A stretch of 64,000 bases of DNA from Mesorhizobium sp. GTDB taxonomy: Bacteria > Pseudomonadota > Alphaproteobacteria > Rhizobiales > Rhizobiaceae. Location of the stretch: the NCBI RefSeq assembly GCF_017306545.1, contig NZ_JAFKID010000020.1:1-64000 (forward strand). The letters run 5' to 3'. How positions within the stretch are numbered: position 1 is the stretch's first letter; the number at the start of each line of letters is the position of its first letter. The translations under genes were made by a program, and so were the position numbers. The notes beneath the pieces are model-generated. The model saw only the letters and a list, made by a program, of their open reading frames with translations, made no database searches and had not been told where the DNA came from. Positions 31,244 to 47,192 of this stretch are shown here, one piece after another.

Positions 31244-31984
31244 TTGGCTGTTCTCGAACTTATCAACGTTTCCAAGCATTTCGGCGCGATCCAGGCCGTC
31301 AACGATGTCTCCTTCTCGCTGGAGCCGGGCGAGGTGGTCGGGCTGATGGGCGACAACGGCGCCGGCAAATCGACGCTGGTGAAGATGATCGCCGGCAACT
31401 TCCGCCCGAGCCACGGCGCCCTGCGCATGGACGGCGGCGAACTGGTCATGCACAAGCCGGTCGACGCGCGCCGCAGCGGCATCGAGATCGTCCATCAGGA
31501 TCTTGCGCTCTGCGACAACCTGACGGCGGCTGCGAACGTTTTCCTCGGCCGCGAAATGCGGCGCGGCGTCTGGCCCTTCAGCGTCCTCGACTACGCTTCC
31601 ATGTATCGCCGCGCCGGCGAGATCTTTATCGAACTCAAGTCGGAAACGCGGCCGCGCGACCTGGTACGCAAGATGTCCGGCGGTCAGCGCCAGGCGGTGG
31701 CGATCGCCCGCACCATGCTGTCCAAGGCGAAGATCGTGCTGATGGACGAACCGACGGCGGCGATCTCGGTCAGGCAGGTGGCGGAGGTGCTCAACCTCAT
31801 CCGCCAGTTGCGTGACAGCGGCATCGCCGTGGTGCTGATCAGCCACCGCATGCCTGACGTATTCGACGTCGCCGACCGCGTCATCGTCATGCGGCGCGGC
31901 CGCAAGGTGGCCGACAAGGTGATCGCCGCGAGTTCGCCGGAGGAAGTCACCGGGCTGATTACCGGCGCCGTCGAAGCCGCCTGA
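31244..31984 (+). CDS. Sugar-type ABC transporter ATPase, single-domain (CUT2/FrcA-like)
   Basis: A 246-residue ATPase. Walker A GDNGAGKS is at 36-43, signature MSGGQ at 144-148, Walker B VLMDEP at 165-170, and the switch His in ISHRMPDVFDVAD. RbsA/XylG proteins of this class normally carry two such domains in about 500 residues; this protein has one, like the fructose-transport FrcA. No ATG is available: the start appears to be TTG at 31244 behind GGGAGGCAAGGG. Pairs with the permease 37 nt downstream. Confidence 0.9.
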   Translation: MAVLELINVSKHFGAIQAVNDVSFSLEPGEVVGLMGDNGAGKSTLVKMIAGNFRPSHGALRMDGGELVMHKPVDARRSGIEIVHQDLALCDNLTAAANVFLGREMRRGVWPFSVLDYASMYRRAGEIFIELKSETRPRDLVRKMSGGQRQAVAIARTMLSKAKIVLMDEPTAAISVRQVAEVLNLIRQLRDSGIAVVLISHRMPDVFDVADRVIVMRRGRKVADKVIAASSPEEVTGLITGAVEAA

Positions 31985-32021
31985 ATTGCCGTCCAATCCC
32001 TCGAAGCCGCGAAGGTCGACA

Positions 32022-33020
32022 ATGGCAGTCACTCTTGACCAGACGATAGAACACAAGCAGCATACGTTCCTGTCGCGCCTGCTCGGCAACCAGACCTTCT
32101 GGGTCGTCATCGCCGTCGTGCTGGCCTGTGTGTTCCTGTCGTTGTCGACGGATTCTTTCGCGACGGCGAAGAACCTCTACAACATCACCCGCAACGTCAC
32201 CTTCGTCGCCATCGTGGCGCTCGGTATGACCTTCGTTATTATAACAGGCGGCATCGACCTGTCGGTTGGATCGGTGCTTTGCTTGTCCTCGATGGTGCTG
32301 GCGGTGACGATGCACGCCGGCTACAGCATCGAACTCGGCATCCTGGCGGCGGTCGCGACGTCGCTGGTCATCGGCGCTTTCAACGGCATCCTGATCGCCT
32401 ATCTCGGCTTTCCGTCCTTCGTCGTGACGCTCGGCATGTTGTCCATCGCCCGCAGCCTTGCCATGGTGGCCTCCAACAACACGGTGGTCTTCCAGTTCGG
32501 CCCCGACCACGACAAGCTCTTGGCGCTCGGCGGCGGAGCCTGGCTGTTCGGTATCGCCAATCCGGTGCTCTATATGATCGTCCTGGCGCTGCTGACCGGC
32601 TTCGTCATGCGCTGGACGCGCTTCGGGCGGCACATCTTCGCCATTGGCGGCAACGAACAGGCGGCGATGCTGACCGGTGTTCCGGTGAAGCCGATCAAGG
32701 TCGCCGTCTACATGATCTGCGCGCTTTCGGCGGCCATCGCCGGTATTATCCAGACCGGCTGGCTGGGCGCGGTGACGACCAATATCGGCACCGGCATGGA
32801 ATTGCAGGTGATCGCCGCCGCCGTCATCGGCGGGGCGAACCTCGCCGGCGGCGTCGGCACCGCCTTCGGCGCGCTGGTGGGCGCGGCGTTGATCGAAGTC
32901 ATCCGCAACAGCCTCGGCCTGCTCGGCATCAACGCCTTCTGGCAGGGAACCTTCATCGGCGGCGCCATCGTGCTGGCAGTGCTTTTCGACAGGCTGCGCA
33001 ACATCCGGCAATCGGACTGA
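32022..33020 (+). CDS. Sugar-type ABC transporter permease (RbsC-like)
   Basis: A 332-residue inner-membrane permease of the BPD_transp_2 ribose class with about nine to ten membrane segments. The hallmark TFVIITGGIDLSVGSVLCLSSM is followed by FPSFVVTLGMLSIARSLAM, FAIGGNEQAAMLTGVPV and VIGGANLAGGVGTAFGALVGA. The ATG at 32022 follows GAAGG; an upstream GTG-type start would add an unconserved tail. Convergent with the NorD-like gene 14 nt away. Confidence 0.92.
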   Translation: MAVTLDQTIEHKQHTFLSRLLGNQTFWVVIAVVLACVFLSLSTDSFATAKNLYNITRNVTFVAIVALGMTFVIITGGIDLSVGSVLCLSSMVLAVTMHAGYSIELGILAAVATSLVIGAFNGILIAYLGFPSFVVTLGMLSIARSLAMVASNNTVVFQFGPDHDKLLALGGGAWLFGIANPVLYMIVLALLTGFVMRWTRFGRHIFAIGGNEQAAMLTGVPVKPIKVAVYMICALSAAIAGIIQTGWLGAVTTNIGTGMELQVIAAAVIGGANLAGGVGTAFGALVGAALIEVIRNSLGLLGINAFWQGTFIGGAIVLAVLFDRLRNIRQSD

Positions 33021-33034
33021 CGTCCAACCGGTCG

Positions 33035-35278
33035 TCAGCGGCCGAGCGTGAGGTAGAGTTTCGGCAGAAGGTCCGTCAGCCGCTCCACCGTGGCGATGGA
33101 GATGGCGTTCTTTTGGCCGAAGATTCGACTGAGATAGGAGTCGGCGCTGGAATCGAGGCCGGCGCAGAAGGTGTCGATGGCCAGCCGGCTGAGCCCCTGT
33201 ACGGCCTTGCGGGCGTCCTCGACCAGGTAGTGCCGGTCATCGACGTCGATGTCGGAGGGCTCGCCGTCGGTGACGACCAGAAGCAGGCGGCGATAGCTGC
33301 GTTGCGTGGCGAGGTCGGCGCCGGCGTGCCGCATGGCAGCACCCAGCCGAGTCGAGAAGCCGCTTTGTAGGCCGGCCAGCCTCGATTCAACCAGTCCGTC
33401 GTAGGGCTGGCCGAAATCCTTGATGCGCATGTAGCGCACGTCGTCACGCTTGTCCGAGCAGAAGGCAGCGAGCGCGAACGGGTCGCCAAGGCCCGCCATC
33501 GCCTGCGACAGCAGCGCGGCCGCCTGGCGCTCGACGTCGAGCACGGTCTGCCGGCCGTCGCGCACCCGGTCGCTGGTCGATTGCGAGGCGTCGAGCAGCA
33601 GCAACACGGAAAGGTCGCGGCTGCGGCGCTCGTAGCGGCCGTGGATGCGCGGGCTGGGCGGCTCGCCGATGCGGCGCGCGACCGCCGCGTCGATGCAGGC
33701 GTCGATATCGAGGAAATCGCCTTCCGATTGCCGGCGCAGGCGCTCGGCGCGGCTGACACGGGCCGAGCGGATGAGCGCCGTCAGCCGGTTGGCGAGGTCG
33801 GCGCGCTGCTCGCGCAGGCGCGCCACCCGCTCGGCCGGCCCGGAATCGGCGAGATATTCCTTGACCGATGTCCAGTCGCGCTGCTCGCGCCCGGTGACGT
33901 AGTCGAATTCCGGGTAGCGGGCGACCAGCACGCCGTTCATTTCGACCTGCTGGATCTCGACCTGGCCGGCTTCGCTGTCCGGCTTGTTCTCGGGTTCGAC
34001 CCGGTCGGGCCGGTCTTCGTTTTCCTCCTGCCGGATGCGGGCGCTCGACAGCACTTCCTCGGCGTCGGCGTTCTGCTGGTCGTCGTCGCCGAAATCCCAC
34101 AGGCCGAGATTGTCGTCGCGGTAGGGCGGCTGGACGACGTAGGTCTTGGCGTCGAACTGGAGCCGCATCTGGCCGAGGTCGTTGCCGAGCAGGTTGCCGA
34201 TACGGCGGCTGAGCTGCTGGTCGCGCAGGTCGGGTTCAGCGAGGAAAGCTTCCCGCGCCTTGATCACCCAGGGGTTCGGGTCTTCGTAGGCCGGATCGGC
34301 CAATGCGCGGGAGAGCCGGGCAAACAGGGTTTGCGCGTTGACGGCGCTCGTCGGCTGCGCCGTGTGGAAGGGCTGGAACAGCCGCGCCAATCCCGGCAAG
34401 TCCTGCATGGCCAGGTGCTCGACGCGGGCGTCCTCGATCAGCGACACCAGCGCGATCTGCATCGGCCGCAGGCTGCCGAGCGGGAAGCGCTCGCGCGTGA
34501 AGCGCAGATGCGCGCCGATATGGGCGACGGCGGCCCGGTAGAGGCGCTCGGCCTCGGTGCGCTGGAAGCCGGGATAGGCGGACGGCAGGCGCACGATGCT
34601 GCCGTCGAAGCCCGGCCGGCGACGCGCCTGTTCGGGTGCGTTGGCCGGCGTTTCCCTGAGCGGCGGGTTGTCGCCCCATAGGGCGGTGAGGAACGGCTTC
34701 AGTCTCGCCTCCATGTCGGCGAAGCCGGCCTGGCCGCTGGTTCGTTGCAGCCAGCGGATGGCGGACGGGTCTTCCAGCGTGAAGAACCGCAAGCGCCGTT
34801 TGGCGTCGCCTTCGGCGGAGCGGACGCCGATGCGCAGCCAGGCTTCCAGCCCGTCGAGGTCGATCTCAGCCAGGAGTTTCGGCATTGCCTTCAGCAGCGC
34901 CGTCAGGGATTCGGGAGCGGTCGTGTTGGCGTATTCCATCAGCGCGACCCAGCGGACGAAGCCGCCTTCGCCGAGCCTGCCCGCGGCATCGAGCGCGGTT
35001 TCGGAGAGCAGGGCGGCGGCGGTGCGGCCGGAGCGGATGGCGACGCTCGAAACGGTGCCGGCAAGATCGATCGCCGCCTGCGGGGTCGTCGCGCGGGCGA
35101 TGTCGGGAGAGGAGCGGATATAGGCGTCGGTGACGGCGTCGCCGTAGCCTGCCCCGGCGAGACGGCGGCAGGCGCGAATCCAGGCCGGATGCCGGTCGCC
35201 CGGAAACGCCGAGGGCGCGTCACGGTCGAGCGCCTGCTGATGGACGGCGTCGCGCCGGTCCGGCGCATTCTCATTCAT
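33035..35278 (-). CDS. NorD/CbbO-like VWA-domain protein
   Basis: A 747-residue cytoplasmic protein. The C-terminal von Willebrand factor A domain (about 555-745) has a MIDAS-type motif DASQS from Asp563 and the TDGEP segment at 669-673. The middle (about 395-440) is acidic and low complexity. The N-terminal 300 residues are helical, as in NorD. Such proteins are substrate adaptors for NorQ/CbbQ AAA+ ATPases that insert cofactors or remodel enzymes. The partner ATPase gene ends 5 nt upstream. No nitric-oxide reductase or Rubisco genes are near; the adjacent AmiE amidase is the most obvious neighbour. Last gene of the amide block. Confidence 0.88.
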   Translation of the reverse strand: MNENAPDRRDAVHQQALDRDAPSAFPGDRHPAWIRACRRLAGAGYGDAVTDAYIRSSPDIARATTPQAAIDLAGTVSSVAIRSGRTAAALLSETALDAAGRLGEGGFVRWVALMEYANTTAPESLTALLKAMPKLLAEIDLDGLEAWLRIGVRSAEGDAKRRLRFFTLEDPSAIRWLQRTSGQAGFADMEARLKPFLTALWGDNPPLRETPANAPEQARRRPGFDGSIVRLPSAYPGFQRTEAERLYRAAVAHIGAHLRFTRERFPLGSLRPMQIALVSLIEDARVEHLAMQDLPGLARLFQPFHTAQPTSAVNAQTLFARLSRALADPAYEDPNPWVIKAREAFLAEPDLRDQQLSRRIGNLLGNDLGQMRLQFDAKTYVVQPPYRDDNLGLWDFGDDDQQNADAEEVLSSARIRQEENEDRPDRVEPENKPDSEAGQVEIQQVEMNGVLVARYPEFDYVTGREQRDWTSVKEYLADSGPAERVARLREQRADLANRLTALIRSARVSRAERLRRQSEGDFLDIDACIDAAVARRIGEPPSPRIHGRYERRSRDLSVLLLLDASQSTSDRVRDGRQTVLDVERQAAALLSQAMAGLGDPFALAAFCSDKRDDVRYMRIKDFGQPYDGLVESRLAGLQSGFSTRLGAAMRHAGADLATQRSYRRLLLVVTDGEPSDIDVDDRHYLVEDARKAVQGLSRLAIDTFCAGLDSSADSYLSRIFGQKNAISIATVERLTDLLPKLYLTLGR

Positions 35279-35283
35279 GGCGG

Positions 35284-36123
35284 TCAGATGCAGGCGGCGA
35301 CGGCGGCCTTCAGCGCGTCGCGCATGTCGGGGTCGTCGGTGATCGGCAGAACAAGGGCGACCTCGCAGGCTTCGTCGACCGGAATGCCGCGCTTCGCCAG
35401 GAGGCCTGCATTGATGAGCATGCGGGTGGAGGCGCCTTCTTCCAGCCCGTGACCTTTCAGGTTGCGCGCGCGCTGGCCGATGCGCACCAGCGTCGCAGCC
35501 GTCTTGCGGTCGACGCCGGATTCGGTGGCGACGATCTCCGTCTCGATCGCCTCGTCGGGGTAGGAGAAGGCGATCGCGGCGAAGCGCTGCTTGGTCGATT
35601 CCTTCAGGTCTTTCAGCACGCTCTGGTAGCCGGGGTTGTAGGAGATGACGAGATGGAAGTCGGGGTGGGCCTTCAGCACCTCGTTTTTCTTCTCAAGCGG
35701 GAGGATGCGGCGGTCGTCGGTCAGCGAGTGGATGACGACGGTGGTGTCCTGGCGCGCCTCGACGATCTCGTCGAGGTAGCAGATGGCGCCGGAACGTACG
35801 GCGAGCGTCAGCGGTCCGTCATGCCAGACGGTGCCATCGGCATCGAGCAGGTAACGGCCGACGAGGTCGGAGGCTGTCATGTCTTCGTGGCAGGAGACGG
35901 TGACGAGCGGGCGCTTCAGCCGCCAGGCCATATGCTCGACGAAGCGCGTCTTGCCGCAGCCGGTCGGACCCTTGAGCATGATCGGCATGCGCGAGGAAAA
36001 GGCCGCTTCGAACAGGCCGATCTCGTTGGCGACGGGCCGGAAATACGGCTCGGACGCAATGCGGAAATCATCGAGCCTTTCGCCGCCGGAAGCGCCGGCG
36101 ACAAAACCCGTACCTTGGTGCAT
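35284..36123 (-). CDS. NorQ/CbbQ-family MoxR-type AAA+ ATPase
   Basis: A 279-residue MoxR-clade ATPase. Walker A GPTGCGKT is at 52-59 and Walker B ICYLDE at 114-119, with [17 protein letters not shown] as the characteristic NorQ/CbbQ insertion and [21 protein letters not shown] as sensor-1 and the following region. It forms rings that act with a VWA adaptor, here the 747-residue protein just downstream. It follows amiE after an 87-nt gap holding a strong hairpin. The amide operon of Pseudomonas aeruginosa also contains an ATPase gene (amiB), so an ATPase in this setting has precedent. Confidence 0.92.
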
Positions 36124-36163
36124 TTCAGTCTCCAGAATTCACGTTGTTTCCAGCGCGCCCGGT

Positions 36164-36193
36164 GCGCCGCGGCCTCCTCGTCGGCCGCGGCGC
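36164..36193 (-). terminator. Hairpin between amiE and norQ-like gene
   Basis: An 11-bp perfect stem (GCGCCGCGGCC with GGCCGCGGCGC) and 8-nt loop begin 17 nt after the amiE stop. There is no U tract. It probably protects amiE mRNA or reduces expression of the ATPase pair. Confidence 0.5.
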
Positions 36194-36210
36194 CCAAGGT
36201 TGCCCCCGGC

Positions 36211-37248
36211 CTAACGGTGGGCGGCAACCTTGTTGGGAATGCCCTCGATTGGGGCTTCCGGCGTGCCGACGGTCTGTCGGGTCATCGCCTCGACCTTTTC
36301 GCGGGTGCCTTCCGGGTCGGTGATCCACTGTTTGTAGAAGTTGTACGGGCACACCGCATGGCCGCGCGTGTCGTCACCGGAATTGATGAGGCCGGTGTAG
36401 CCGCGGTGCAGAAGCTTGAAGAGGTGGTTCTGCGACTGCATGTTGCGGCGGGCGTCGCGGATCAGCGACACCGAGAGCTGGCCGTACTGGATGCCGTTCT
36501 CCTCCGTGCCGCATTCGCCCAGCGTGCGGCCGTCGAAACCGATGATGGAGGAATGACCGAAGTAGGAATAGACGCCGTCGAAGCCGGCCGCGTTAGCGAC
36601 CGCCACGTAGACGTTGTTGGCCCATGCCATCGCCCTGGAGATGAGGATCTGCTGTTCCTTGGCGGGGTACATGTAGCCCTGGCAGCGGATGATCAGTTCG
36701 GCGCCGCGCATGGCGCAGTCGCGCCAGATCTCGGGGTAGTTGCCGTCGTCGCAGATGATGAGGCTGATCTTCAGGCCCTTCGGGCCTTCGGTGACATAGG
36801 TGCAGTCGCCCGGATACCAGCCCTCGATCGGCACCCAGGGCATGATCTTGCGGTATTTCTGCACGATCTCGCCCTTGTCGTTGATCAGGATCAGCGTGTT
36901 GTAGGGCGCCTTGTTGGGATGTTCCTCATGCCGTTCGCCGGTGAGCGAGAAGACGCCCCAGACGCGCGCCTTCTTGCAGGCGTCGGAGAAGATTTTCGTC
37001 TCCTCGCCGGGGATGGCCGAGGCGGTTTCGTACATCTCCTTCTGGTCGTACATGATGCCGTGCGTGGAATATTCGGGGAAGATCACCAGATCCATGCCCG
37101 GCAGGCCGGCCTTCATGCCCTCCACCATCTTGGCGATGTTGCGGGCGTTGGCGAGCACTTCGTCGCGCGTATGCAGCCGAGGCATCTTGTAGTTGACGAC
37201 GGCAACGCCGACGGTGTCGTTGCTGCTCGAAATATCGCCGTGATACAT
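36211..37248 (-). CDS. amiE: Aliphatic amidase
   Basis: A 345-residue nitrilase-superfamily amidase (EC 3.5.1.4) hydrolysing short aliphatic amides to acid and ammonia in the cytoplasm. The length and N-terminus ([20 protein letters not shown]) match Pseudomonas AmiE closely. The catalytic triad aligns at the same numbers: Glu59 (FPEYS), Lys134 (KYRKIMPW) and Cys166 ([10 protein letters not shown]). The ATG at 37248 follows AAGGAGG; a longer in-frame start is not conserved. It lies 34 nt after urtE, so the importer and amidase form one unit under AmiC/AmiR-type control. Confidence 0.97.
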
Positions 37249-37282
37249 GTCATACTCCTCCTTGGGGTTTACCGGTGTCCGT

Positions 37283-37978
37283 CTAGACAACCAGATGCTG
37301 TTGGATCATCTCGTCGCTGAGTTGGCCGATCGGCCCTTCGACCGCGACGCTGCCTCGATTGAAGATGGCGAAATGCCGCGAGGCGCGGCGGGCGAAGGCG
37401 ATGTTCTGCTCGACCAGAATGACGGTCAGGCCGTGCTTGCGGTTCAGGTCGATCAGAACGTCTTCGATCTGTTCGACGATGTTGGGCTGGATGCCCTCGG
37501 TCGGTTCGTCGAGCAGCATGATCTTGGGTTCGGACAGCAGCGCGCGCGCTATGGCGAGCTGCTGCTGCTGGCCGCCCGACAGGTTGCCGCCCCGCCGGTT
37601 GAGGAATTCCTTGAGAATGGGAAAGAGATCGAGCACCCATTCGGCGATGCGGCCGCCGCCGCCCTTGGCGGCGAAGGTGCCGACCATCAGGTTCTCGCGG
37701 ACGGTGAAGGAAGGCAGGATGCCGCGCCCCTGCGGCACGTAACCGACGCCGGCCAGCGCGCGCTTGTGGGTCGGCTGGTCGACCAGTTCCTCGCCGTCGA
37801 GGCGGATCGAGCCGGTGGTGCGGCTCATCAGGCCGAGCACAGTGCGCAGCAGCGTGGTCTTGCCGACGCCGTTGCGGCCGAGGACGGAAAAGAAGTCGCC
37901 CGCCTCGACCTTGAGCGAAACCGATTGCAGCGCCCGGCTGCGGCCGTAGAAGCCGTCGACATTGGCAAGCTCAAGCAT
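37283..37978 (-). CDS. urtE: Urea/short-chain-amide ABC transporter ATPase UrtE
   Basis: A 231-residue LivF-class ATPase. Walker A GRNGVGKT lies near residue 36 and the signature [16 protein letters not shown] precedes Walker [17 protein letters not shown], the form typical of Urt[24 protein letters not shown] closes it. Overlaps urtD by 8 nt. Together with UrtA-D it drives uptake of urea or, given the adjacent amiE, short amides. Confidence 0.93.
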
Positions 37979-38735
37979 GGCCGATTCCTCCCGAGCCGAG
38001 ATAGGCGTCGCGCACGGCCTGGTTGGCTTCGATCTCGGCGATCGTTCCTTCGGCGAGCATCTTGCCCTGGTGCATGACGGAAATGGTCTGGGCGATGTCG
38101 CGCACGAAGCCCATGTCGTGCTCCACGACGATCAGCGTGTGCTTGCCGCGCAGGCGGCAGAACAGTTCCGCCGTCTTCTTGGTTTCCTGCTGCGTCATGC
38201 CTGCTGTCGGCTCGTCCATGAGGATGAGGAGAGGGTTCTGGGCGAGGATCAGCGCGATCTCCAGCCACTGTGTCTGCCCGTGCGACAGGAAGGCGGCCGG
38301 CGTTTCCAGTTCGTCCTGGAGGCCGACCAGCGCCGCCAGCCTCTCGATCTCTTCCTTCTCGCCGCTCTGGCCGAAGCTGAACAGGTTCGCCAGGATTCCC
38401 GGCTGGCCGGAACGACCGATATAGAGATTGTCGCGCACGCTGAGTTCGCGAAAGACGCTCGGCACCTGGAATTTGCGGCCGATGCCGGCGCGGGCGATCG
38501 AATGTTCGCTGAGCCTGTGGATAGGCTTGTCGCGGAAGCGGACCTCGCCGGCGGACAGTTTCGTCTTGCCGCAGATGACGTCGAGGGCGGTGGTCTTGCC
38601 GGCGCCGTTCGGCCCGATGAGGCAGCGCAGTTCGCCCTGGCCGACGCCGAGGGTCAGGTCGGAGATGGCGATGAAGCCGCCGAACGAGACCTGGGCCCGG
38701 TCGATCAGAAGCTGCGATTGCGGGGCCGGGTTCAT
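37971..38735 (-). CDS. urtD: Urea/short-chain-amide ABC transporter ATPase UrtD
   Basis: A 254-residue LivG-class ATPase. Walker A is GPNGAGKT. The UrtD-type signature reads FLSHGQTQWLEIALIL, followed by Walker B LLILMDEPTAGMTQQET. GIGRKFQVPSVFRELSVRDNL is the Q-loop region. The ATG at 38735 overlaps the urtC stop (ATGA); the long minus frame upstream is a shadow of urtC. Confidence 0.93.
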   Translation of the reverse strand: MNPAPQSQLLIDRAQVSFGGFIAISDLTLGVGQGELRCLIGPNGAGKTTALDVICGKTKLSAGEVRFRDKPIHRLSEHSIARAGIGRKFQVPSVFRELSVRDNLYIGRSGQPGILANLFSFGQSGEKEEIERLAALVGLQDELETPAAFLSHGQTQWLEIALILAQNPLLILMDEPTAGMTQQETKKTAELFCRLRGKHTLIVVEHDMGFVRDIAQTISVMHQGKMLAEGTIAEIEANQAVRDAYLGSGGIGHA

Positions 38736-39895
38736 GACAGGCTCTCCGCGTGACGGGTGTTGGCGACCGCTTCCGTGCGCTGCGGTTGCAGTTGCGGCGG
38801 TGGCACCGGGGCCGCCCGCCTGTGTCCGAACTTGCCGGCGAGCTTCTCGACGGCGCCGGCGATGCCTTTGGGCAGGAACAGCACGACGAGGACGAACAGC
38901 AGGCCCATGATGAGCGTCCAGCTGTCGAGGAAGGTTTCGGATTCGGAGAGCGCGCCCTGAGTGCCGGTGACGACCAGCGCGCCGAGCATGGCGCCCAGCA
39001 GGCTCTGCCGGCCGCCGACGGCGACCCAGATGACGACGGAAAGGGAGAGCGGCACGCCGAGGAAGGTCGGCGAGGCGAACTCCATGACGATGGTGTAGAG
39101 CATGCCGGCGAGGCCGGCGATCGCCGCCGAAACCGAGAAGATGAAGATCTGGTAGAGCGCCACGTCGTAGCCGAAGAAGCGGACGCGGTCCTCCTGGTCG
39201 CGGATCGCCTGGACGATGAGGCCGGTCTTGCTCTTGGTGACGGCCAAAGCGAGGAACAGCGAAACCGTCAGGCAGATGGCGACGAGGTAGTAGCTGGACG
39301 AAGAGTAGGCGTCGAAGGTGAAGCCGGCGACGTCGAACTGGGCGAGGTCGGTGATGCCGTTGAAGCCGCCCGTATAGGCCTGCTGGTCGATGATGAGGAG
39401 TTGCACCACCACCATCGCCGCCAGCGTGGTGATGGCCGCATAGACGCCGGTGACGCGGCCACGGAACATGAACCAGCCGAGCAGGGCGGCGAACAGCATC
39501 GGCACGACGATGCCGGCGGCGACGCCGAAGGTCATGGAATAGAAGGGTTTCCAGAACCAGGGCAGCTCGGGAACGTTGTTCCAGACCATGAAGTCGGGCA
39601 GGCCGTCGGCGCCGGTATGGATGGGGATGGTCTTCAGCTTCAGCGCCATCGCCATGCAGTAGGAGCCGAGGCCGAAGGTGGTGGCCTGGCCGAGATTGAG
39701 GATGCCGGCATAGCCCCACGACAGGCTGAGCGAGACGGCGAGGATGCCGAGCACCAGATAGCGGGCGTATTTGTTGAGCAGGAACGCATCGTGAAGGACG
39801 AGCGGAAGCGCCAGGATCGCCAGGCACACGGCCGCGTAGACGGCGATCTCCAATTTGGTCTTGCCGGACACTTTGTTCTTTCCCTGGACTGGCAT
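38732..39895 (-). CDS. urtC: Urea/short-chain-amide ABC transporter permease UrtC
   Basis: A 387-residue LivM-class permease, longer than LivM as usual for UrtC, with about ten membrane segments. Landmarks are LSLSWGYAGILNLGQATTFGLGSYCMAMAL, GFNGITDLAQFDVAGF, IRDQEDRVRFFGYDVALYQ and GGRQSLLGAMLGALVV. The C-terminal 35 residues are a Pro/Gln-rich cytoplasmic tail. Starts 8 nt after the urtB stop. Confidence 0.93.
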   Translation of the reverse strand: MPVQGKNKVSGKTKLEIAVYAAVCLAILALPLVLHDAFLLNKYARYLVLGILAVSLSLSWGYAGILNLGQATTFGLGSYCMAMALKLKTIPIHTGADGLPDFMVWNNVPELPWFWKPFYSMTFGVAAGIVVPMLFAALLGWFMFRGRVTGVYAAITTLAAMVVVQLLIIDQQAYTGGFNGITDLAQFDVAGFTFDAYSSSSYYLVAICLTVSLFLALAVTKSKTGLIVQAIRDQEDRVRFFGYDVALYQIFIFSVSAAIAGLAGMLYTIVMEFASPTFLGVPLSLSVVIWVAVGGRQSLLGAMLGALVVTGTQGALSESETFLDSWTLIMGLLFVLVVLFLPKGIAGAVEKLAGKFGHRRAAPVPPPQLQPQRTEAVANTRHAESLS

Positions 39896-39903
39896 GGGCG
39901 GGC

Positions 39904-40773
39904 TCACGCACGCACGCGGGCGGTGAAGAGGCCTTGCGGCCGGAAGCGGATGATGACGACGATGGCCAGCAGCACGAGCGCCTTGGCGATGGTGTCGTTG
40001 GAATAGAAGGCGAGGTAGCCGGACAGTTCGCCGAGGATGCCGGAGCTTGCCAGCGTGCCCATCAGGCTCTGCGCGCCGCCGAGCACGACGACCATGAAGG
40101 CGTCGACGACGTAGGTGGTGCCCATTTCGGGCGAGACGCTCTTGAGCGGCGAAACCAGCGCACCGGCGAGGCCCGCGATGCCGGCGCCGTAGGCGAAGGT
40201 CAGGCGGTAGATGCGGCTGGCGTTGATGCCGAAGGAGGAGGCGACGGACCTGTTCTGGGTGATGGCCCTCAGCTTCAGGCCGAAGCTGGTGTAGCGGTAG
40301 ATGCCCCAGGTGACGGCAAACAGCGCCAGCGCGACGGCCAGGATGAACAGCCGGTAGGCGGACTCGGTCGCGCCGAAGACGGTGACGCTGGCGGAAAGCG
40401 ATTCCGGCATCTGCACGTAGCGCAGTTCGCCGCCGGCGGTCAGCCGGATCGCCTGCTGGGCCATGACGCCGATGCCCCAGGTGGCGAGGATGGTATCGAG
40501 AGGCCGGGCGTAGAGGTGACGGATGACCAGCACCTCGACCAGCCAGCCGACCGCGGCCAGGATGAGGAAGATCGCAACCAGGCTGGGCAGGAGGCTGAGG
40601 CCGAGTTCGGTCTGCAATGCCCAGGCCGCATAGGCGCCGAGCATGACGAACTCGCCATGCGCCAGGTTGATGACGCCGGTGACGCCGTAGATGACGGCAA
40701 GGCCGAGCGAGACGAGCATCAGGATCGAGGCGATGCTCAGTCCGGTCATGATCTGCGAAACGACGATGTCCAT
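39904..40773 (-). CDS. urtB: Urea/short-chain-amide ABC transporter permease UrtB
   Basis: A 289-residue LivH-class permease with about eight membrane segments. The N-terminus GLAVIYGVTGVINLAHGEFVMLGAYAAW, the coupling loop LRAITQNRSVASSFGINASRIYRLTFAYGAGIAG and GGAQSLMGTLASSGILGELSGYL are typical of UrtB. Separated from urtA by a 69-nt gap with a perfect hairpin. Confidence 0.93.
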   Translation of the reverse strand: MDIVVSQIMTGLSIASILMLVSLGLAVIYGVTGVINLAHGEFVMLGAYAAWALQTELGLSLLPSLVAIFLILAAVGWLVEVLVIRHLYARPLDTILATWGIGVMAQQAIRLTAGGELRYVQMPESLSASVTVFGATESAYRLFILAVALALFAVTWGIYRYTSFGLKLRAITQNRSVASSFGINASRIYRLTFAYGAGIAGLAGALVSPLKSVSPEMGTTYVVDAFMVVVLGGAQSLMGTLASSGILGELSGYLAFYSNDTIAKALVLLAIVVIIRFRPQGLFTARVRA

Positions 40774-40803
40774 GGCGCGTGCTTTTCGAAACGGAGGAGC
40801 GTT

Positions 40804-40829
40804 GGCGGCGATGGCGAACCATCGCCGCC
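40804..40829 (-). terminator. Hairpin between urtA and urtB
   Basis: A perfect 11-bp stem (GGCGGCGATGG with CCATCGCCGCC) closed by a TTCG tetraloop on the transcribed strand lies 13 nt after the urtA stop. Without a U tract it is best read as an mRNA-stabilising element that raises UrtA relative to the permeases. Confidence 0.6.
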
Positions 40830-40842
40830 GCGCGGGGCGCGA

Positions 40843-42090
40843 TCAGATCTGCTTGAGGCCTTCGGCCGTGCACTTCTGGTGCGGGTAGGCCTTGTAGGGA
40901 TCGGGCTCGAGCCAGTTGTCCGACTGCTTGAGGATCTTGAACTGGCCGTCGGGCTGGCACTGGCCGATCTTCGGCCACAGCCAGGTGTGCTGGTTTTCCG
41001 GCTCGATGCGCACCTTGCCTTGCGGTGCGATCATCTCCTGGCCCTTGAGCGCTTCGCGGATGCCGAGGGGCGTGATGTCGCTGCCGGCCAGCTTCTCGGC
41101 CGCCTGCTTGAACAGGTGGACCTGGAAATAGGACGGCTCGGAGACGAAGTGCGTGACCTTGTCGGCGCCCCAACGCTTCTTGTAGGCATCGACGAATTTG
41201 TGGTTTTCCGGCGAATCCCAGACCATGAAGTAAGGGGCCGAGGTGAAGTGGCCGGCGGCGGCTTCGCCGCCCATCGCCGCCACTTCGTTCTCGGACGTGG
41301 TCAGGCTCGCCATCGGCATGGTCGCCGGATCGAGGCCGGCCGCGTGATACTGCCGATGCAGCGCCACCACCGAGTCGCCGACGACGGTGGAGAAGATGAC
41401 GTTCGGCTTTTCCGCCTTCAGCTTGTTGATGACGGAAGAGAACTCCGAGTGGCCGAGCGGCACGTATTCCTCGGCCACCACTTCGGCGCCGAGTTCGGCC
41501 AGAAGCTTCTTGCAGTAGTTGTTCTCTTCCTTCGGATAGATGTAATTGGAGCCGATCAGGTACCAGCGCTTGCCGAACTTCTCGACCAGCCAGGGGATGA
41601 AGTCGTCCTGCTGCTGGTTGGGCACGGCGCCCGTGTAGACGACGTTCTTCGAGCACTCGCGGCCTTCGTAGAGGGTCGGGTACCAGAACAGGTTTTCCTG
41701 CTTCTCGAACACCGGCAGCACCGCCTTGCGGCTGGCGGAGGTGTAGGCGCCGAACACCGACACGCACTTGTCGGACATCACCAGCTTGCGCGCCTTCTCG
41801 GCGAAGGTGGCGGGATCGGATGCCGGGTCTTCCACCACCGCCTCGATCTGCATGCCGTTGATGCCGCCGGCCGCGTTGATCTCCTCGATGGCGAGGATGG
41901 TGGCCTTGTTCAGCGATTCCTCGATGATGGCGGTGGTGCCGGTCAGCGAAAACAGCACGCCGACCTTGACCTTGCCGTCGGCGGCGCGCGCCAGCGAATA
42001 GTTCTTGTTCCAGATATGCGGAAAGCCGACCAGCGTGGCGGTGCCGAGCGCGGCGGTTCCCTTTAGGAAATTGCGACGGTTCTTGTTCAC
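40843..42090 (-). CDS. urtA: Urea/short-chain-amide ABC transporter substrate-binding protein UrtA
   Basis: A 415-residue binding protein of the UrtA/FmdD type. A twin-arginine signal is visible at the start (NRRNFLKGTAALGTATLVGF). The mature part begins VKVGVLFSLTGTTAIIEESLNKATILAIEEINAAGGING and contains YTSASRKAVLPVFEKQENLFWYPTLYEG. The start is GTG at 42090 behind GGGGAGAG. It is clearly paralogous to the AmiC-like protein encoded at 42993, which has no signal. An ANTAR-type antitermination leader lies upstream and a hairpin downstream. Confidence 0.94.
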   Translation of the reverse strand: MNKNRRNFLKGTAALGTATLVGFPHIWNKNYSLARAADGKVKVGVLFSLTGTTAIIEESLNKATILAIEEINAAGGINGMQIEAVVEDPASDPATFAEKARKLVMSDKCVSVFGAYTSASRKAVLPVFEKQENLFWYPTLYEGRECSKNVVYTGAVPNQQQDDFIPWLVEKFGKRWYLIGSNYIYPKEENNYCKKLLAELGAEVVAEEYVPLGHSEFSSVINKLKAEKPNVIFSTVVGDSVVALHRQYHAAGLDPATMPMASLTTSENEVAAMGGEAAAGHFTSAPYFMVWDSPENHKFVDAYKKRWGADKVTHFVSEPSYFQVHLFKQAAEKLAGSDITPLGIREALKGQEMIAPQGKVRIEPENQHTWLWPKIGQCQPDGQFKILKQSDNWLEPDPYKAYPHQKCTAEGLKQI

Positions 42091-42213
42091 CTTTCTCTCC
42101 CCTGAAAATGAAATGGCCCCGAAGCGAGCTGCGCGAGGCAGACCGTTTCGAGGCCACAGTGCCGTTTCGATTTCAGCGGCGCGGAGCCGCACGCGAACCC
42201 TGTCGTTCGCAAC

Positions 42214-42290
42214 AAAAAACCCCACGTCTCGCTTGCGCGAAGGCCGTGAGGTTCCATTACCCGTATTTCGCTGGCGGCTTCGTTGCCGCC
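42214..42290 (-). promoter_or_regulatory. ANTAR-target antitermination leader upstream of urtA
   Basis: On the transcribed (minus) strand, stem-loop P1 at 42290-42273 is GGCGGC-AACGAA-GCCGCC. After a 10-nt linker, stem-loop P2 at 42262-42249 is GGGT-AATGGA-ACCT. Both hexaloops have A at position 1 and G at position 4, the ANTAR-target hallmark. The P2 3' strand is part of the terminator arm AACCTCACG (42253-42245), which pairs with CGTGGGGTT (42226-42218) followed by a run of Us. P2 and the terminator are mutually exclusive. The urtA start lies 124 nt past the terminator. Confidence 0.8.
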
Positions 42291-42302
42291 AATTCAAAAA
42301 CG

Positions 42303-42971
42303 CTAGCTGAGAAGATCGTAGGAGTCAACAATGGCGGTAGCGACGGCGCCGATGGTGACGCGGCGCTCCATCGCCTGCCGGCGCAGGTAGTTGTAGGCCT
42401 CTTCCTCGGTGATGTTCTTGACGCGGATCAGCAGCGATTTGGCGCGCTCGACGCTGCGCATGGTGCGCAGGCTTTCGTCCAGCTTCTCGATGCGTCCGCG
42501 CAGGCGCCGCTCGTAGAGGAAGTGGCTGCGCGCCAGCGACAGCACGGTCTGCACCGAGCGCACGGTCGTCGGATAATGCAGCACGCCGTGGGCGGCGCAG
42601 TTGTGCAGAAGCTTGAGATCGAGCGGGCCCTCGCCGCGGTCGACCACCACCAGCGCAGCGCCCGGCTCTCCCGGTATCCACGGCAGCCGCTGCGGCAGGT
42701 CGGCCGAGAGCGTGCAGAAAACGACGTCGCAATGAACCGGGATCTGCGGCGGCATGGGCCATTCGTGATGGACCTGGCAGCGCAGGCGCTGCAATTCCCG
42801 GATGAGGCGTTCGCCGTCGTCGTCGCGCTCGACGACGGCGGCCACCTTCAGATCCCACAGGGCAGGGGAGGCGCCGGTCGCGGGCGGGGTGTGCGGCGTT
42901 TCCTTGCGCGGTGAGCCCGCCTGTCCGGTCCTGTCGCGGCCAAAACTCTTCATGCCGATCGTCTCTTGCAC
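42303..42971 (-). CDS. amiR: ANTAR-domain antiterminator, AmiR-like
   Basis: A 222-residue protein. Residues about 40-150 resemble a receiver domain but lack a clear phosphoacceptor Asp (the region reads CDVVFCTLSA), as expected for the pseudo-receiver of AmiR. A coiled coil at about 150-172 leads to the ANTAR domain at 157-218 (SVERAKSLLIRVKNITEEEAYNYLRRQAMERRVTIGAVATAIV). It should bind paired hexaloop stem-loops and stop terminators forming. The start is GTG at 42971 behind GGGAGAAC, 21 nt after the amiC-like gene. Residues 1-38 are a Pro/Thr-rich extension. Confidence 0.92.
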   Translation of the reverse strand: MQETIGMKSFGRDRTGQAGSPRKETPHTPPATGASPALWDLKVAAVVERDDDGERLIRELQRLRCQVHHEWPMPPQIPVHCDVVFCTLSADLPQRLPWIPGEPGAALVVVDRGEGPLDLKLLHNCAAHGVLHYPTTVRSVQTVLSLARSHFLYERRLRGRIEKLDESLRTMRSVERAKSLLIRVKNITEEEAYNYLRRQAMERRVTIGAVATAIVDSYDLLS

Positions 42972-42992
42972 GATGTTCTCCCTTGCGCGCCG

Positions 42993-44153
42993 TCAGCACA
43001 GTTCCAGCGCGCGCTGGCCGAGGCTGCGTCCGTAGCCGAGCAGGTAGGGGTCGGAGCGGACGCAACTTTGCGATTCGTAGACGAGGTCGAACTGGCCACG
43101 CCGGTTCGCCCGGCCGATGCGGGTCCAAAGGTCGGCGTGGCCCCACATGGGATTGATGGAAACGTCGCCCTGCGGCGCCTCGAATTCGGACCCCATCACC
43201 GAGGCCCGCAGGATCTCGGTGTCCATGGAATTGGTTTCCTCCAGCGTCTTGGCGAAGACGTTGACCTGGAAATAGGAGGCCTCCAGGCACATGTTGGTCG
43301 GCTCGTCTTCGCCGTAACGCTTCTGGTAGCGGCGCACGAACGTGGAATTGCGTTCGTTTCCGACACCCTGGAAATAGGGCGCGGCGGTGATGTGGCCTTC
43401 GCCGACGTCATGGCCCATGACGCGGATTTCGGCTTCCGTCGTGGTCAGGCTGGCGATCGGCATGACTTTCGGGTTCAAGCCCAGTTCGGCATAGGCCTGG
43501 TAGAGATAGACCGTGGCGTCGCCGACGACGGTGGAGAAGATGACGTCGGGCTGCGCGCGCTTGATGTCGCGCATGACGGGCAGGAATTCGGCTCGCTTGG
43601 CGCCCAGGTTGACATAGGATTCGCCGACCACCGTGCCGCCGCTGTTGCGCACGAGTTCGCGCATGATGCGATTGGATTCGCGCGGATAGACGTAGTCCGA
43701 GCCGATGAAATAGAAGCGCGTGCCGTAGGTTTCCATCAGGACACGGCAAAGCTCGACGCTGTTCTGGTTCGGCGTCGCGCCGGTGTAGATGACGTTCGGC
43801 GAGAATTCGAACCCTTCGTAGAGCGTCGGGTACCACAGCAGGCCGTTCAGGCGCTCGACGACCGGCACCACGGCCTTGCGACTCGACGAGGTGTAGCAGC
43901 CGAAGATGGTGTTGACGCCGTCCTCGACCATCAGTTTCTTGGCGTAGCGCCCGAAGGCGCTCGCTTCGGAGGCAGGGTCATAGCAGATCGGCTCGATCGG
44001 CCTGCCGTTGACGCCTCCCGCGGCGTTGATTTCCTCTATGGCCGTCAGCGTGCCCCTCAACTGCGTTTCCTCGATCACGGCCATGAAGCCGGAACGGGAA
44101 AAGAGGACGCCGACGCGCCAAGGTTCGGAGGTATTGCTCGATTTGATCAACAT
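42993..44153 (-). CDS. amiC: AmiC-like cytoplasmic amide sensor (negative regulator of AmiR)
   Basis: A 386-residue protein of the periplasmic-binding-protein fold with no signal peptide (MLIKSSNTSEPWRVGVLFSRSGFMAVIEETQLRG), matching the 385-residue AmiC of Pseudomonas in length and N-terminus. In that system AmiC holds AmiR inactive until an amide binds. Here it directly precedes amiR. It shares long stretches with UrtA (YPTLYEG, IFSTVVGD, ASLTT). The ATG at 44153 follows GGAGCGT; the longer frame upstream is not conserved. Ligand specificity (amide or urea) is not readable. Confidence 0.93.
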   Translation of the reverse strand: MLIKSSNTSEPWRVGVLFSRSGFMAVIEETQLRGTLTAIEEINAAGGVNGRPIEPICYDPASEASAFGRYAKKLMVEDGVNTIFGCYTSSSRKAVVPVVERLNGLLWYPTLYEGFEFSPNVIYTGATPNQNSVELCRVLMETYGTRFYFIGSDYVYPRESNRIMRELVRNSGGTVVGESYVNLGAKRAEFLPVMRDIKRAQPDVIFSTVVGDATVYLYQAYAELGLNPKVMPIASLTTTEAEIRVMGHDVGEGHITAAPYFQGVGNERNSTFVRRYQKRYGEDEPTNMCLEASYFQVNVFAKTLEETNSMDTEILRASVMGSEFEAPQGDVSINPMWGHADLWTRIGRANRRGQFDLVYESQSCVRSDPYLLGYGRSLGQRALELC

Positions 44154-44233
44154 ACGCTCCCAGGGTTCCCCAACCGCTTTTCTTTTCTGTGGGATCGCGG
44201 CCGCCGTCATCCTGATAGCGGCCGCGATCACGG

Positions 44234-45250
44234 TCAACCGGCGAGAAGCTCCTTGAGCTTGCCGTCGAGAAATTTCACGTCCTCAACGCTGGTGCCCGGT
44301 CCGCCGGCGAAGTGTCCCCATACGGATTCGAAAGGCACGAGCCTGGCGTTCGGCATGTTCGCGACCTCGACCTCGCTGTCTTCGGGCGGGAAGTAGAGAT
44401 CGGTGCGGCACGGCATGACGTAGGCCTTCGGCTTGATGGCGGCGAGCGCCTTCTTGAAGTCGCCGTGATAGAGCTCGTTGTCGGAGATGTCGCCGTACTG
44501 CCAGGTCCAAAGCATTGCCAGAAGATCGTTGGCGTCACGGGCCAGGAAGTGCCCTTCCCAGAACGCGACCAGGAAGTCCTCCATGCTGGAATAGCCGAGA
44601 TCCTTGCTGTCGAGCTGCTGGCGGTAAAATGCCTGCGAAAGCCCCCAGCCGGCATAGACGCGCCCTACGGCGCGCAGGCCCCGCGTCGGCCTTTCCTTGT
44701 AGAAACCTTCGGCCCAGACGGCATCGGCGGTGAGGGCGGCCTTGACCCCTTCGAGGAAGACGAAGTTGTGGCGCGAGCATTTGGCGGAGCCGCAGAAGGG
44801 CACGATGATGTCGACCATGTCGGGGTAGAGCGCGCCCCACTGGAACGCCTGCAAGGCGCCCATCGACCAGCCCACCACCATGCGGATCTTCTCGATGCCG
44901 AACTTCTCCGTCACCAGCCGGTGCTGGGCGCGGACGTTGTCGTAGATGGTGACGTTGGGAAAACGGCCAGCATTGTAGGGCTCGGGCGTGTTCGACGGCG
45001 AGGACGACATGCCGTTGCCGAACATGTTGGGGATGATGATGAAATACTTGTCGGGGTCGAGCGCCATGCCCTTGCCGATCAGCCAGTAATTGTCCTGCTG
45101 GAAGCCGGAGTACCAGGTCGGGTAGACGATGACGTTGTCCTTGGCGGCGTTCAGCTTGCCGAAAGTCTTGTAGGCAAGCTTGGCGTTGCGCAGCGTGGCG
45201 CCGCGCTGGAAGGAAAAGGCGCCGAGGTCGAAGATTTCGTAGTCTTCCAT
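44234..45250 (-). CDS. MetX-like alpha/beta-hydrolase
   Basis: A 338-residue alpha/beta-hydrolase similar to homoserine O-acetyltransferase and its relatives. Nucleophile Ser129 is in GWSMGALQAFQW, Asp284 in RTDLYFPPED and His313 in WGHFAGG. The oxyanion region is NMFGNGMSSSPSNTPEPYNAGRFP. Lying between the NCS1 permease and amiC in an amide operon, it is more likely a hydrolase of an ester or amide than a methionine-biosynthesis enzyme. This is an inference from context. Confidence 0.85.
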   Translation of the reverse strand: MEDYEIFDLGAFSFQRGATLRNAKLAYKTFGKLNAAKDNVIVYPTWYSGFQQDNYWLIGKGMALDPDKYFIIIPNMFGNGMSSSPSNTPEPYNAGRFPNVTIYDNVRAQHRLVTEKFGIEKIRMVVGWSMGALQAFQWGALYPDMVDIIVPFCGSAKCSRHNFVFLEGVKAALTADAVWAEGFYKERPTRGLRAVGRVYAGWGLSQAFYRQQLDSKDLGYSSMEDFLVAFWEGHFLARDANDLLAMLWTWQYGDISDNELYHGDFKKALAAIKPKAYVMPCRTDLYFPPEDSEVEVANMPNARLVPFESVWGHFAGGPGTSVEDVKFLDGKLKELLAG

Positions 45251-45310
45251 ATGCGTTACTCTCTGTTGGAACGATGAAGGGGCCGACGGGCCGGCCCCTC
45301 CGGTGAGGGA

Positions 45311-46624
45311 TCAGGCCGGTGCCCGAGCGGCGACCGACTGGCGGCCGATGATGGCGTAGGCGATGCCGCCGGCCAGCATGGCGCAGATGGCCGTGCAGTA
45401 TTGCGGCGCGTAGAAGTCCACGACAAAGGCGACGGCCGATCCGATCGCCCAGGCGACGAAGGCGGTCGGGCGCCAGTCTTCGCTGATTTCCGCGTTCTTC
45501 CTGTAGAGGTACTGGTCGACCAGGATGATGGCGCCGATCGGCGGCACCAGAATGCCGAGCAGGGTCAGCCACTGGATGAAGAAGGCCCAGACGTTGCCGG
45601 CGGCGACGACGATGCCGACGATGCCGAGCACCACCGCCATGACGCGCATGCGGGTGCCGATGATGCGCGACCAGCCGGTGGCCGCATGGTAGAGGACGTG
45701 GGCGCAGACGGAGCCGAGGTTGCAGTAAAGGAACAGGAAGGCGAGCAGGCCGAGCCAGCCGATCTGCTTGGCGTGCATGTAGCCGAACATGTTGTCGGCG
45801 CCGAACGGATTGGCGTTCGGAACCGCAAGGGCCGCCGTCATGACGCCGCCGACCAGCATGGCGGCGAGGTTGGCGAAGGGGAAGGCCGAGAAGGTGGCGA
45901 TGATGGAGCTTTTCGAATCTTTTGCCCAGCGGTTGATGTCGCCGCTGACCGTGCCCGCGTCGATGAACAGCGCGATCACCACCGTCAGGCCGACGCCCAT
46001 CGACATGCTGGCGGCGCCGTTGTTGCCGGCATAGGCGAAGACCGCGTCCCAGCCGGCGGTCGAGGCGGAATCGAACACCACCCAGCCGCCCAGGATGACG
46101 AACAGCGGCACGGAAACCAGTCCGATCAGGTGCAGGCCGTGCACGCCGATGAAGGTGATGCCGATGTAGAGCAGGCCGGCGACGATGGTCATCGTCACGT
46201 AGTTGAGGTCGTAGGCCGAACTGATGAGCGCTCCGGTGATGCCTGTCTGCACCGCGTACCAGCCGAGCAGCAGCGTCGACAACAGCCCCGAGGCGAAGAC
46301 GTAGCCCTTCTTGCCGAAGACGATGGAGGCGAGCAGCGCGAAGTTCATGCCGCGGCGGGTTCCCAGCACGCCGATCGCGCTGATATAGGCGAACATGACG
46401 AGGTTGCCGATCAGCATGGCCCAGAAGGCGCTCTTGAAGCCCATGCCGAGGACAAGGATGGAGCCGGTCATGGCGCCGGTGATGATCATCGGAAAGCCGA
46501 TCCAGACGGTCGTCACGGAAAACAGGCTGCGGCGGGCCGCCATCGGCACGGGCTGATGTTCGTATTCTTCTCCGAGAACGTGGTCGACGTCGTCGATCGC
46601 GTCGACATTGCTTGTTTTGGTCAT
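45311..46624 (-). CDS. NCS1-family permease (purine-cytosine permease/CodB-like)
   Basis: A 437-residue secondary transporter with about twelve membrane segments. Landmarks are RRSLFSVTTVWIGFPMIITGAMTGSILVLGMG, FGKKGYVFASGLLSTLLLGWYAVQTG, ALFIDAGTVSGDINRWAKDSKSS and LGILVPPIGAIILVDQYLYRK, all typical of the cytosine permease branch. ATG 46624 follows AGGAGGGTGCA. It is the first gene behind the upstream ANTAR-type leader, so it is likely induced by the amide/urea signal. Substrate could be a pyrimidine, hydantoin-like or other N compound. Confidence 0.9.
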   Translation of the reverse strand: MTKTSNVDAIDDVDHVLGEEYEHQPVPMAARRSLFSVTTVWIGFPMIITGAMTGSILVLGMGFKSAFWAMLIGNLVMFAYISAIGVLGTRRGMNFALLASIVFGKKGYVFASGLLSTLLLGWYAVQTGITGALISSAYDLNYVTMTIVAGLLYIGITFIGVHGLHLIGLVSVPLFVILGGWVVFDSASTAGWDAVFAYAGNNGAASMSMGVGLTVVIALFIDAGTVSGDINRWAKDSKSSIIATFSAFPFANLAAMLVGGVMTAALAVPNANPFGADNMFGYMHAKQIGWLGLLAFLFLYCNLGSVCAHVLYHAATGWSRIIGTRMRVMAVVLGIVGIVVAAGNVWAFFIQWLTLLGILVPPIGAIILVDQYLYRKNAEISEDWRPTAFVAWAIGSAVAFVVDFYAPQYCTAICAMLAGGIAYAIIGRQSVAARAPA

Positions 46625-46845
46625 TGCACCCTCCTGGGTCAATCGCGTTGCGTGGGTGAGGCCCGTCGTCGCGATGGGACGCCCTTGTCCACGTCCGCTA
46701 CTGCCTGGTCGGCGCCGTCAGCCATGAATTCGTCGAACAGTTGTTCTGCACGGTGGGCTCATGCCTTCTTCCGCGTCCGTCCTCGTCCTCCAGGCCGGCC
46801 GGCCCTGTTCCCCCAGGCTTCTCGGTCGGGTATCGCACAAACGAC

Positions 46846-46925
46846 AAAGGCCTCCCGATGGCTCCTGACGCGGAGACAAAGGGAGGCCTTTCTGCCTTGA
46901 TCTGATTGGTGGCCTCGTTGCCACC
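46846..46925 (-). promoter_or_regulatory. ANTAR-target antitermination leader upstream of NCS1 permease
   Basis: On the minus strand, P1 at 46925-46908 is GGTGGC-AACGAG-GCCACC (A1 and G4 in the hexaloop). A 10-nt linker leads to P2 at 46897-46884, AGGC-AGAAAG-GCCT (A1 kept, position 4 is A). The P2 3' strand is part of the terminator arm AAAGGCCTCCC (46891-46881), which pairs perfectly with GGGAGGCCTTT (46856-46846). The geometry is identical to the urtA leader. Only a weak U tract follows the terminator. Confidence 0.75.
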
Positions 46926-46951
46926 TTCCTGCTTATTTAACAGGCGAAACA

Positions 46952-46980
46952 ACGCTACATTCAAGGAACTTTCGAGTCAA
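46952..46980 (-). promoter_or_regulatory. Candidate promoter for the amide operon leader
   Basis: TTGACT (46980-46975) and TAGCGT (46957-46952), read on the minus strand, are spaced by 17 nt. Transcription would begin about 20 nt before the P1 stem, as expected for a leader RNA that folds at once. The -10 match is weak (3 of 6). Confidence 0.4.
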
Positions 46981-47192
46981 ATGCTATGTAGGACAAATCT
47001 TACAGAGCGTCTTGCGGTTCCGAGGCCGGCTGCGCGCTGGCGCCCCACCTTTCCGACTGCCGGCCGATAAAATGAAAGTGGACAGGCATCGCCTGGTTTT
47101 TTGACCATGTGGACAAAGCTTTGGCCGCGATCCATAGTCGCCCGGCGGCCCCGCAAGAAGGACGCGCCGCATATCCAAAAGAGGGTCGAACA

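Follow-up and report, generated by a model that had tools for sequence, protein, structure and literature searches.

The stretch analysed here, which we call the window, comprises 64,000 nucleotides (nt) of Mesorhizobium sp. contig NZ_JAFKID010000020.1, and it carries a cluster of genes for a putatively amide-sensing AmiC-AmiR-type pair, an ABC importer and an aliphatic amidase. From 46.6 to 33.0 kb every gene is encoded by the minus strand. The gene order is the one that an earlier note on this DNA had given, and the open reading frames (ORFs) and the Pfam and NCBIfam assignments agree with it. Structured leaders had also been claimed before the first gene and between amiR and urtA, and both are found there by folding and by two covariance models made in this analysis, R1 and R2, which are based on the leader 2 and the leader 1 sequences, respectively, of 15 relatives each and exclude the window sequence. 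The features that matter most for what follows are these:

46952..46980, minus strand: promoter-like TTGACT-N17-TAGCGT of unit 1 (exact-pattern genome search)
46838..46929, minus strand: leader 1 (fold, R2 match, covariation)
42993..44237, minus strand: amiC-like sensor gene, true start probably at about 44153 (Pfam, structure match)
42303..42971, minus strand: amiR-like antiterminator gene, AmiR_N plus ANTAR (Pfam, 1qo0_D match)
42300..42328, minus strand: second promoter-like TTGACT-N17-TAGCGT, that of unit 2, within the final codons of amiR (exact-pattern search, conservation)
42211..42291, minus strand: leader 2, or L2a (fold, R1 and R2 matches, covariation)
42105..42192, minus strand: apparently decayed tandem attenuator, L2b, in the amiR-urtA gap (fold, counterparts in relatives)

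Both leaders match the published ANTAR design, in which a hexaloop hairpin P1 is followed by a hairpin P2 that overlaps an intrinsic terminator. In leader 1, P1 (46925-46908) reads GGTGGC[AACGAG]GCCACC and P2 (46897-46884) AGGC[AGAAAG]GCCT, and the terminator at about 46889-46848 ends in a weak U-tract UUUGUCGUUU. The corresponding elements of leader 2 are P1 at 42290-42273, GGCGGC[AACGAA]GCCGCC, P2 at 42262-42249, GGGT[AATGGA]ACCT, and a terminator at about 42251-42220 with a U-tract at 42219-42214. Sequence and fold agree that in either leader P2 and the terminator share an arm, which is 3′ in the former and 5′ in the latter, and the linker between P1 and P2 is 10 nt long in each, within the range of 5-12 nt given for the eut leaders (PMC3369931, in the passages considered). 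Folding z-scores were -5.38 for leader 1 and -4.21 for leader 2, and none of 200 shuffles was equally stable for either.

The hexaloops of leader 2 keep a G at position 4 (G4) throughout the 17 aligned sequences, with A at position 1 (A1) in 17/17 for P1 (AACGAA in the window) and in 13/17 for P2 (AATGGA). In leader 1 the P1 loop, AACGAG in the window, has A1 in 16/17 and G4 in 17/17, and the P2 loop, AGAAAG, keeps A1 and departs from the A1/G4 rule at position 4, where it has an A. A strict two-loop scan for A1/G4 thus found leader 2 and missed leader 1 because of the P2 loop of the latter; it also rejected leader 2 of loci L004, L011, L013 and L015, though alignments show a leader 2 there. 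When the scan was relaxed both leaders were found, plus scattered matches elsewhere that we took as chance. By eye, the amiR-urtA gaps of L061 and L063 have A4 in both hexaloops (GACATA/AGCAAA and AACAGC/GACATT, respectively), which may reflect another AmiR specificity.

The stems are well maintained among relatives. In the leader 2 alignment (17 sequences) 98.8% of the P1/P2 cells pair, against 37-61% in slid controls, and changes on both sides of a pair were seen at three of the six pairs of P1 and one of the four of P2. For leader 1 (17 sequences, 15 of them distinct) the value was 95.3%, with 25-53% in slid controls, and changes on both sides occurred at four of the six P1 pairs and at none in P2. 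Conservation of the leaders spans Mesorhizobium, Nitratireductor, Bosea, Methylobacterium and others.

The Mesorhizobium sp. genome (4.8 Mb in 66 contigs, of which the window is contig 22) was then searched with both models. R2 ranked leader 1 first (E 1.8e-20) and leader 2 second (E 2.5e-9) among 22 matches up to E 10; the third, at 28.1 bits, was the antisense strand of leader 1, a palindrome effect. A further R2 match, C56:16121-16213 (20.8 bits, E 0.0046), was rejected because it falls within a long ORF and fits the model only with a large P1-loop insertion. Genome-wide, R1 gave 26 matches up to E 10, the sole one below 0.1 being leader 2 itself (E 6.2e-23). Within the window it returned 43 matches, the best of them leader 2 (96.9 bits) and the second leader 1 (17.7 bits, E 0.0032). 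The covariance-model search that the earlier note had proposed as a check thus matches both sites, with R1 in the window and with R2 in the genome, and its description of the two leaders as a matched pair of ANTAR type is in keeping with the shared hairpin-terminator design and the cross-detection by R2.

Cross-detection extends to the relatives, in which R1 matched the leader 1 position in 15/15 of the loci carrying one (search of 24 loci; E 1.5e-7 to 0.099) and R2 matched leader 2 in 15/15 carriers (50 loci; E 5.9e-10 to 2.2e-6). The 56 R1 matches up to E 0.1 on the 24 loci were distributed over leader 2 (15, of which 14 are members of the model), leader 1 (15), a tandem attenuator described below (8), other gaps downstream of amiR (7), additional sites in L017 (3), the antisense strand of such places (6) and elsewhere (2). 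A predicted leader behind amiR is widespread, since R1 has a match directly there in 16 of 27 further loci (L012 with E 1.3e-21, the other 15 with 8.7e-6 to 0.72). Leader 1 was found only within a single clade of the AmiR tree, where 16 of the 18 rows have it and L012 and L014 do not; outer-group members of the tree are on long branches and their placement is unsure. Two gene orders occur among the relatives: one is permease-hydrolase-amiC-amiR-urtABCDE-amiE-norQ-norD, and the other is amiC-amiR-urtABCDE-amiE with the permease and hydrolase later or absent, in which leader 1 stands immediately before amiC. An Rfam scan of 30000-50000 with E up to 5 gave seven matches, none at gathering score, and the best one, at leader 1, was to a plasmid antisense-RNA family (25.5 bits vs a cut-off of 50).

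An exact-pattern search of the genome gave two occurrences of TTGACT-N17-TAGCGT and no more, each just upstream of one leader (control pattern, 0 occurrences). The copy of unit 2, which the earlier note had not mentioned, is embedded in the amiR tail such that the TAG stop codon supplies the first three bases of the -10. Among relatives, TTGAC-N16-18-TANNNT lies upstream of the first gene in 18/19 rows, L012 being the exception, and in the amiR tail in 20/49 AmiR rows overall and 15/18 of the clade; its position, 23 nt ahead of the stop codon, is identical in 19 of the 20 carriers. In the clade members without the tail pair (L012, L014 and L017) amiR ends in TGA. Two of these, L012 and L014, nonetheless hold a relic amiR tail, promoter-like pair included, located between a different, intact amiR and leader 2, which it directly precedes (at about 10690-10725 and 10740-10775, some 90 and 180 nt past the present stop, respectively), and L017 has a similar -35/-10 pair after the amiR stop, such a pair preceding each of five sites inspected in that locus. 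The Ile/Val codon in the tail -35 was ATT or GTT in 12/12 loci counted, compared with 135 of 1576 Ile and Val codons (8.6%) across three genes in these loci. We infer that leader 2 most likely has a promoter of its own, because the only two TTGACT-N17-TAGCGT of the genome precede the leaders and the tail copy is conserved.

The claim of an AmiC-AmiR sensor pair agrees with the sequence matches to the P. aeruginosa proteins. The amiR product has an N-terminal pseudo-receiver domain, AmiR_N (PF21332, 56.4 bits, cut-off 27), and a C-terminal ANTAR domain (PF03861, 56.5 bits, cut-off 27.3) and matches P. aeruginosa AmiR 1qo0_D with E 7.1e-14. The amiC-like gene adjoins amiR and encodes a member of the periplasmic-binding fold family that matches P. 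aeruginosa AmiC (1pea/1qo0) with E 5.9e-86 and, slightly better, the binding protein 8tg1 (E 1.5e-90); a TAT-signal search of it gave no match, unlike that of the UrtA-like protein.

We propose, as the probable arrangement, two adjacent promoter-attenuator units under one AmiR, with promoter activity, AmiR binding, the inducer, feedback and leak all inferred. Unit 1 would run from a housekeeping-type promoter through leader 1 to the permease, hydrolase, amiC and amiR genes, and unit 2 from the promoter in the amiR tail through leader 2 to urtABCDE, amiE, norQ and norD. When no inducer is present AmiC would hold AmiR and RNA polymerase would halt at both terminators, slight read-through of leader 1 supplying AmiC and AmiR. 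Binding of an amide by AmiC would free AmiR to bind the P1/P2 hexaloop hairpins, upon which P2 would capture the 5′ terminator arm and so let RNA polymerase continue. Leader 2 would in this way turn on import and hydrolysis, and the separate gating of the importer and amidase section that had been suggested for it is supported. The antiterminator gene does lie downstream of leader 1, as noted earlier, which makes an autogenous positive feedback on the sensor pair plausible, provided that AmiR acts there. Transcripts of unit 1 would also reach leader 2, and a further antitermination event would be required for them to proceed.

Several observations weigh against this interpretation. The numbers of pairs changed on both sides were equalled by shuffles in 35/500 cases for leader 2 and 26/500 for leader 1, and the numbers of further pair types in 472/500 and 500/500, respectively. 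R1 fails to separate leader 1 from chance genome-wide, with scores of 18.4 and 17.9 bits reached elsewhere, and leader 1 is missing from its genome-wide list of 26 matches (E up to 10). Unexpectedly, position 4 of the leader 1 P2 loop is A in 13/17 and G in 4/17 sequences (the window included), while the passages considered of two published studies describe G4 as the only base-specific contact in the EutV-RNA structure (PMC8934654) and report that a G-to-A change in P2 reduces eutP induction (PMC3369931). In regards to the promoters, the -10 TAGCGT shares only 3/6 bases with TATAAT, and a consensus scan, whose terminator rule admits loops of 3-8 only, reported neither promoter-like site nor either leader terminator. 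The loci of the codon count were selected for carrying the promoter and are related to each other, and the count is for these reasons an illustration and no test.

The earlier note had read the cluster as one operon gated twice. If all transcripts started before leader 1, importer and amidase would need two successive antiterminations, for a steeper and lower-leak response. The genes are indeed closely packed on one strand, the exact-pattern search gave no promoter-like site between the leaders apart from the one in the amiR tail, a consensus scan of 42000-47200 gave no other on this strand, and transcripts of unit 1 must encounter leader 2 in any case. However, the conserved TTGACT-N17-TAGCGT at 42328-42300, directly before leader 2 and unique in the genome together with its twin before leader 1, speaks against a single start, as does the retention of a promoter-like relic in loci whose preceding amiR is another, and we consider a single serially gated operon unlikely.

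The A at position 4 in 13/17 leader 1 P2 loops would instead be expected if leader 2 were the sole AmiR target and leader 1 an AmiR-independent attenuator or a plain terminator that has lost its P2 G4, the more so as G4 is reported essential in the eut leaders (PMC8934654 and PMC3369931, in the passages considered). Leader 1 nevertheless keeps G4 in 17/17 and A1 in 16/17 of its P1 loops along with compensatory stem changes, its P2 retains the 6-nt loop and the terminator overlap, and the two leaders match each other by models, so that this reading also appears rather improbable to us. That both leaders are ordinary terminators, resembling ANTAR targets by chance, is very improbable: their strong GC-rich hairpins are what such terminators would also have, and consensus rules alone are no proof of function, but the conservation across genera, the covariation, the invariant loop bases, the genome-wide uniqueness and the position beside amiR all speak for more than a chance likeness. 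Two promoter-attenuator units under one AmiR thus remain the arrangement that we favour.

A second attenuator, better kept than that of the window, lies between leader 2 and urtA in relatives, where it is matched by R1 in 11/13 loci (E 9.6e-5 to 0.35) and by R2 in 12/12 (E 3.9e-8 to 0.069). Its counterpart here, L2b (42192-42105), which likewise had gone unmentioned in the earlier note, looks decayed: P1′ has a 5-nt loop, P2′ reads GGC[ACTGTG]GCC, and the terminator stem is intact with an interrupted U-tract AUUUCAUUUU. It has a fold z-score of -2.49, with 4/200 shuffles equally stable, and an R2 score in the window of 6.8 bits (E 1.2). The stems are invariant among the relatives, and as they do not vary there is no covariation to support the element; its proposed identity rests on position, conserved shape and the model matches in relatives. 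In Rhizobium subbaraonis (L017) the system is seemingly split into several units, with about six model matches in 20 kb (3631-3715, minus; 3736-3812, minus; 3952-4027, plus; 8567-8652, plus; 10608-10695, plus; and 13955-14042, plus), two of them in tandem before amiE.

The odd P2 loop and the weaker U-tract of leader 1 hint at a relaxed or leaky first gate. It is possible, and we propose it tentatively, that the two units form a graded two-step switch, in which leader 1 would be a leaky, early or relaxed gate for the sensor genes and leader 2 a strict one for the costly importer and amidase, formerly backed by the tandem attenuator, with its promoter selected into the final codons and the stop of amiR.

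The other genes of the cluster were assigned as follows:

45311..46624, minus strand: NCS1-type permease (Pfam 50.7 bits, cut-off 23.5)
44234..45250, minus strand: MetX-like alpha/beta hydrolase of PRK07581 type (540 bits, cut-off 332)
40843..42090, minus strand: urtA-like binding protein with TAT signal (423.5 bits, below the cut-off of 492.75)
39904..40773, minus strand: urtB (310 bits, cut-off 250.3)
about 39880-38732, 38760-37971 and 37978-37283, minus strand: urtC, urtD and urtE, respectively (ORFs and tblastn in relatives; starts approximate)
36211..37290, minus strand: amiE, aliphatic amidase (PRK13286, 712.9 bits, cut-off 427)
36123-35284, minus strand: CbbQ/NorQ-type AAA+ protein (Pfam)
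35278-33035, minus strand: VWA protein, norD-like (Pfam)

The permease ORF opens at TTG 46642, and an ATG start was chosen from the AGGAGG upstream of it. The MetX-like hydrolase scores under the curated MetX cut-offs, and the identity of urtC, urtD and urtE comes from ORFs and tblastn in relatives, without a family-library scan. Amides are likelier importer cargo than urea, given that the UrtA-like protein scores below the cut-off for urea UrtA and that urease is encoded elsewhere in the genome, on contig 15. The NorQ/NorD-like AAA+/VWA pair (36123-33035) accompanies the amidase in many relatives.

Besides AmiR the genome encodes one other ANTAR protein, on contig 24. This protein was considered as NasT, and its neighbour genes give no support for this. 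It belongs to a second AmiC-like/ANTAR pair at about 26135-27861 of contig 24 (L115 6135-7861), downstream of which lie ABC transporter genes of the peptide type and an ORF resembling, by eye, acetamidase/formamidase. No leader was reported at this pair by R1 or R2 in the genome-wide searches.

A literature search of CC-licensed PMC papers found no paper on this operon or arrangement. The cluster is nearest in parts to the P. aeruginosa ami operon, which has the order amiECBRS (PMC3369936, in the passages considered), with which it shares an AmiC-AmiR pair, presumably amide-responsive here as well, an aliphatic amidase, a two-hairpin leader with terminator overlap and regulator genes downstream of an AmiR leader. 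Unlike the single leader of that operon, located before amiE, there are two here, the amidase and an ABC importer being in a second unit with a promoter-like sequence in the amiR tail. The earlier note knew of no operon gated more than once by the same ANTAR protein in this arrangement. Multiple gates under one ANTAR protein are already known, however, and the present arrangement is a variant of that. In the passages considered, E. faecalis EutV controls four eut terminators, three of them with their own constitutive promoters (PMC3369931, PMC5821096), and thus one ANTAR protein serves several attenuators of a locus in eut (EutV/EutW) as it would here, although the input there is a phosphorylation-driven two-component system, unlike AmiC-AmiR. 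G4 is reported in both loops in those accounts of eut, whereas P2 of leader 1 has A4, and the passages considered report no promoter in the last codons of the antiterminator gene.

In Desulfotomaculum acetoxidans a computational list, as described in the passages considered of PMC3369931, holds at least 13 ANTAR attenuators, spread over six transcription units, a likeness to our cluster in having several attenuators per unit and nitrogen genes, and ANTAR-target matches upstream of urea transporters are mentioned in the same source. The NasS-NasT system of Bradyrhizobium diazoefficiens is likewise an alphaproteobacterial ANTAR regulon with two hairpins in one cluster, predicted before narK and bjgb; its input is nitrate, unlike that of the Mesorhizobium cluster, and narK-bjgb-flp rose rather than fell in a nasT mutant (PMC6759348, in the passages considered).

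Two neighbouring ANTAR-type leaders of one natural locus, preceded by the same type of promoter, differ here at the one loop base that the protein is supposed to recognise, and the G4 rule is therefore directly testable on them. Codons and stop of a regulator gene also seem to be under constraint from the promoter, and natural swaps of that gene kept the tail only. For annotation, it would be advisable to seek ANTAR leaders behind regulator genes and to score them without requiring G4 in P2. If the graded switch were true, ANTAR proteins would accept a P2 without G4.

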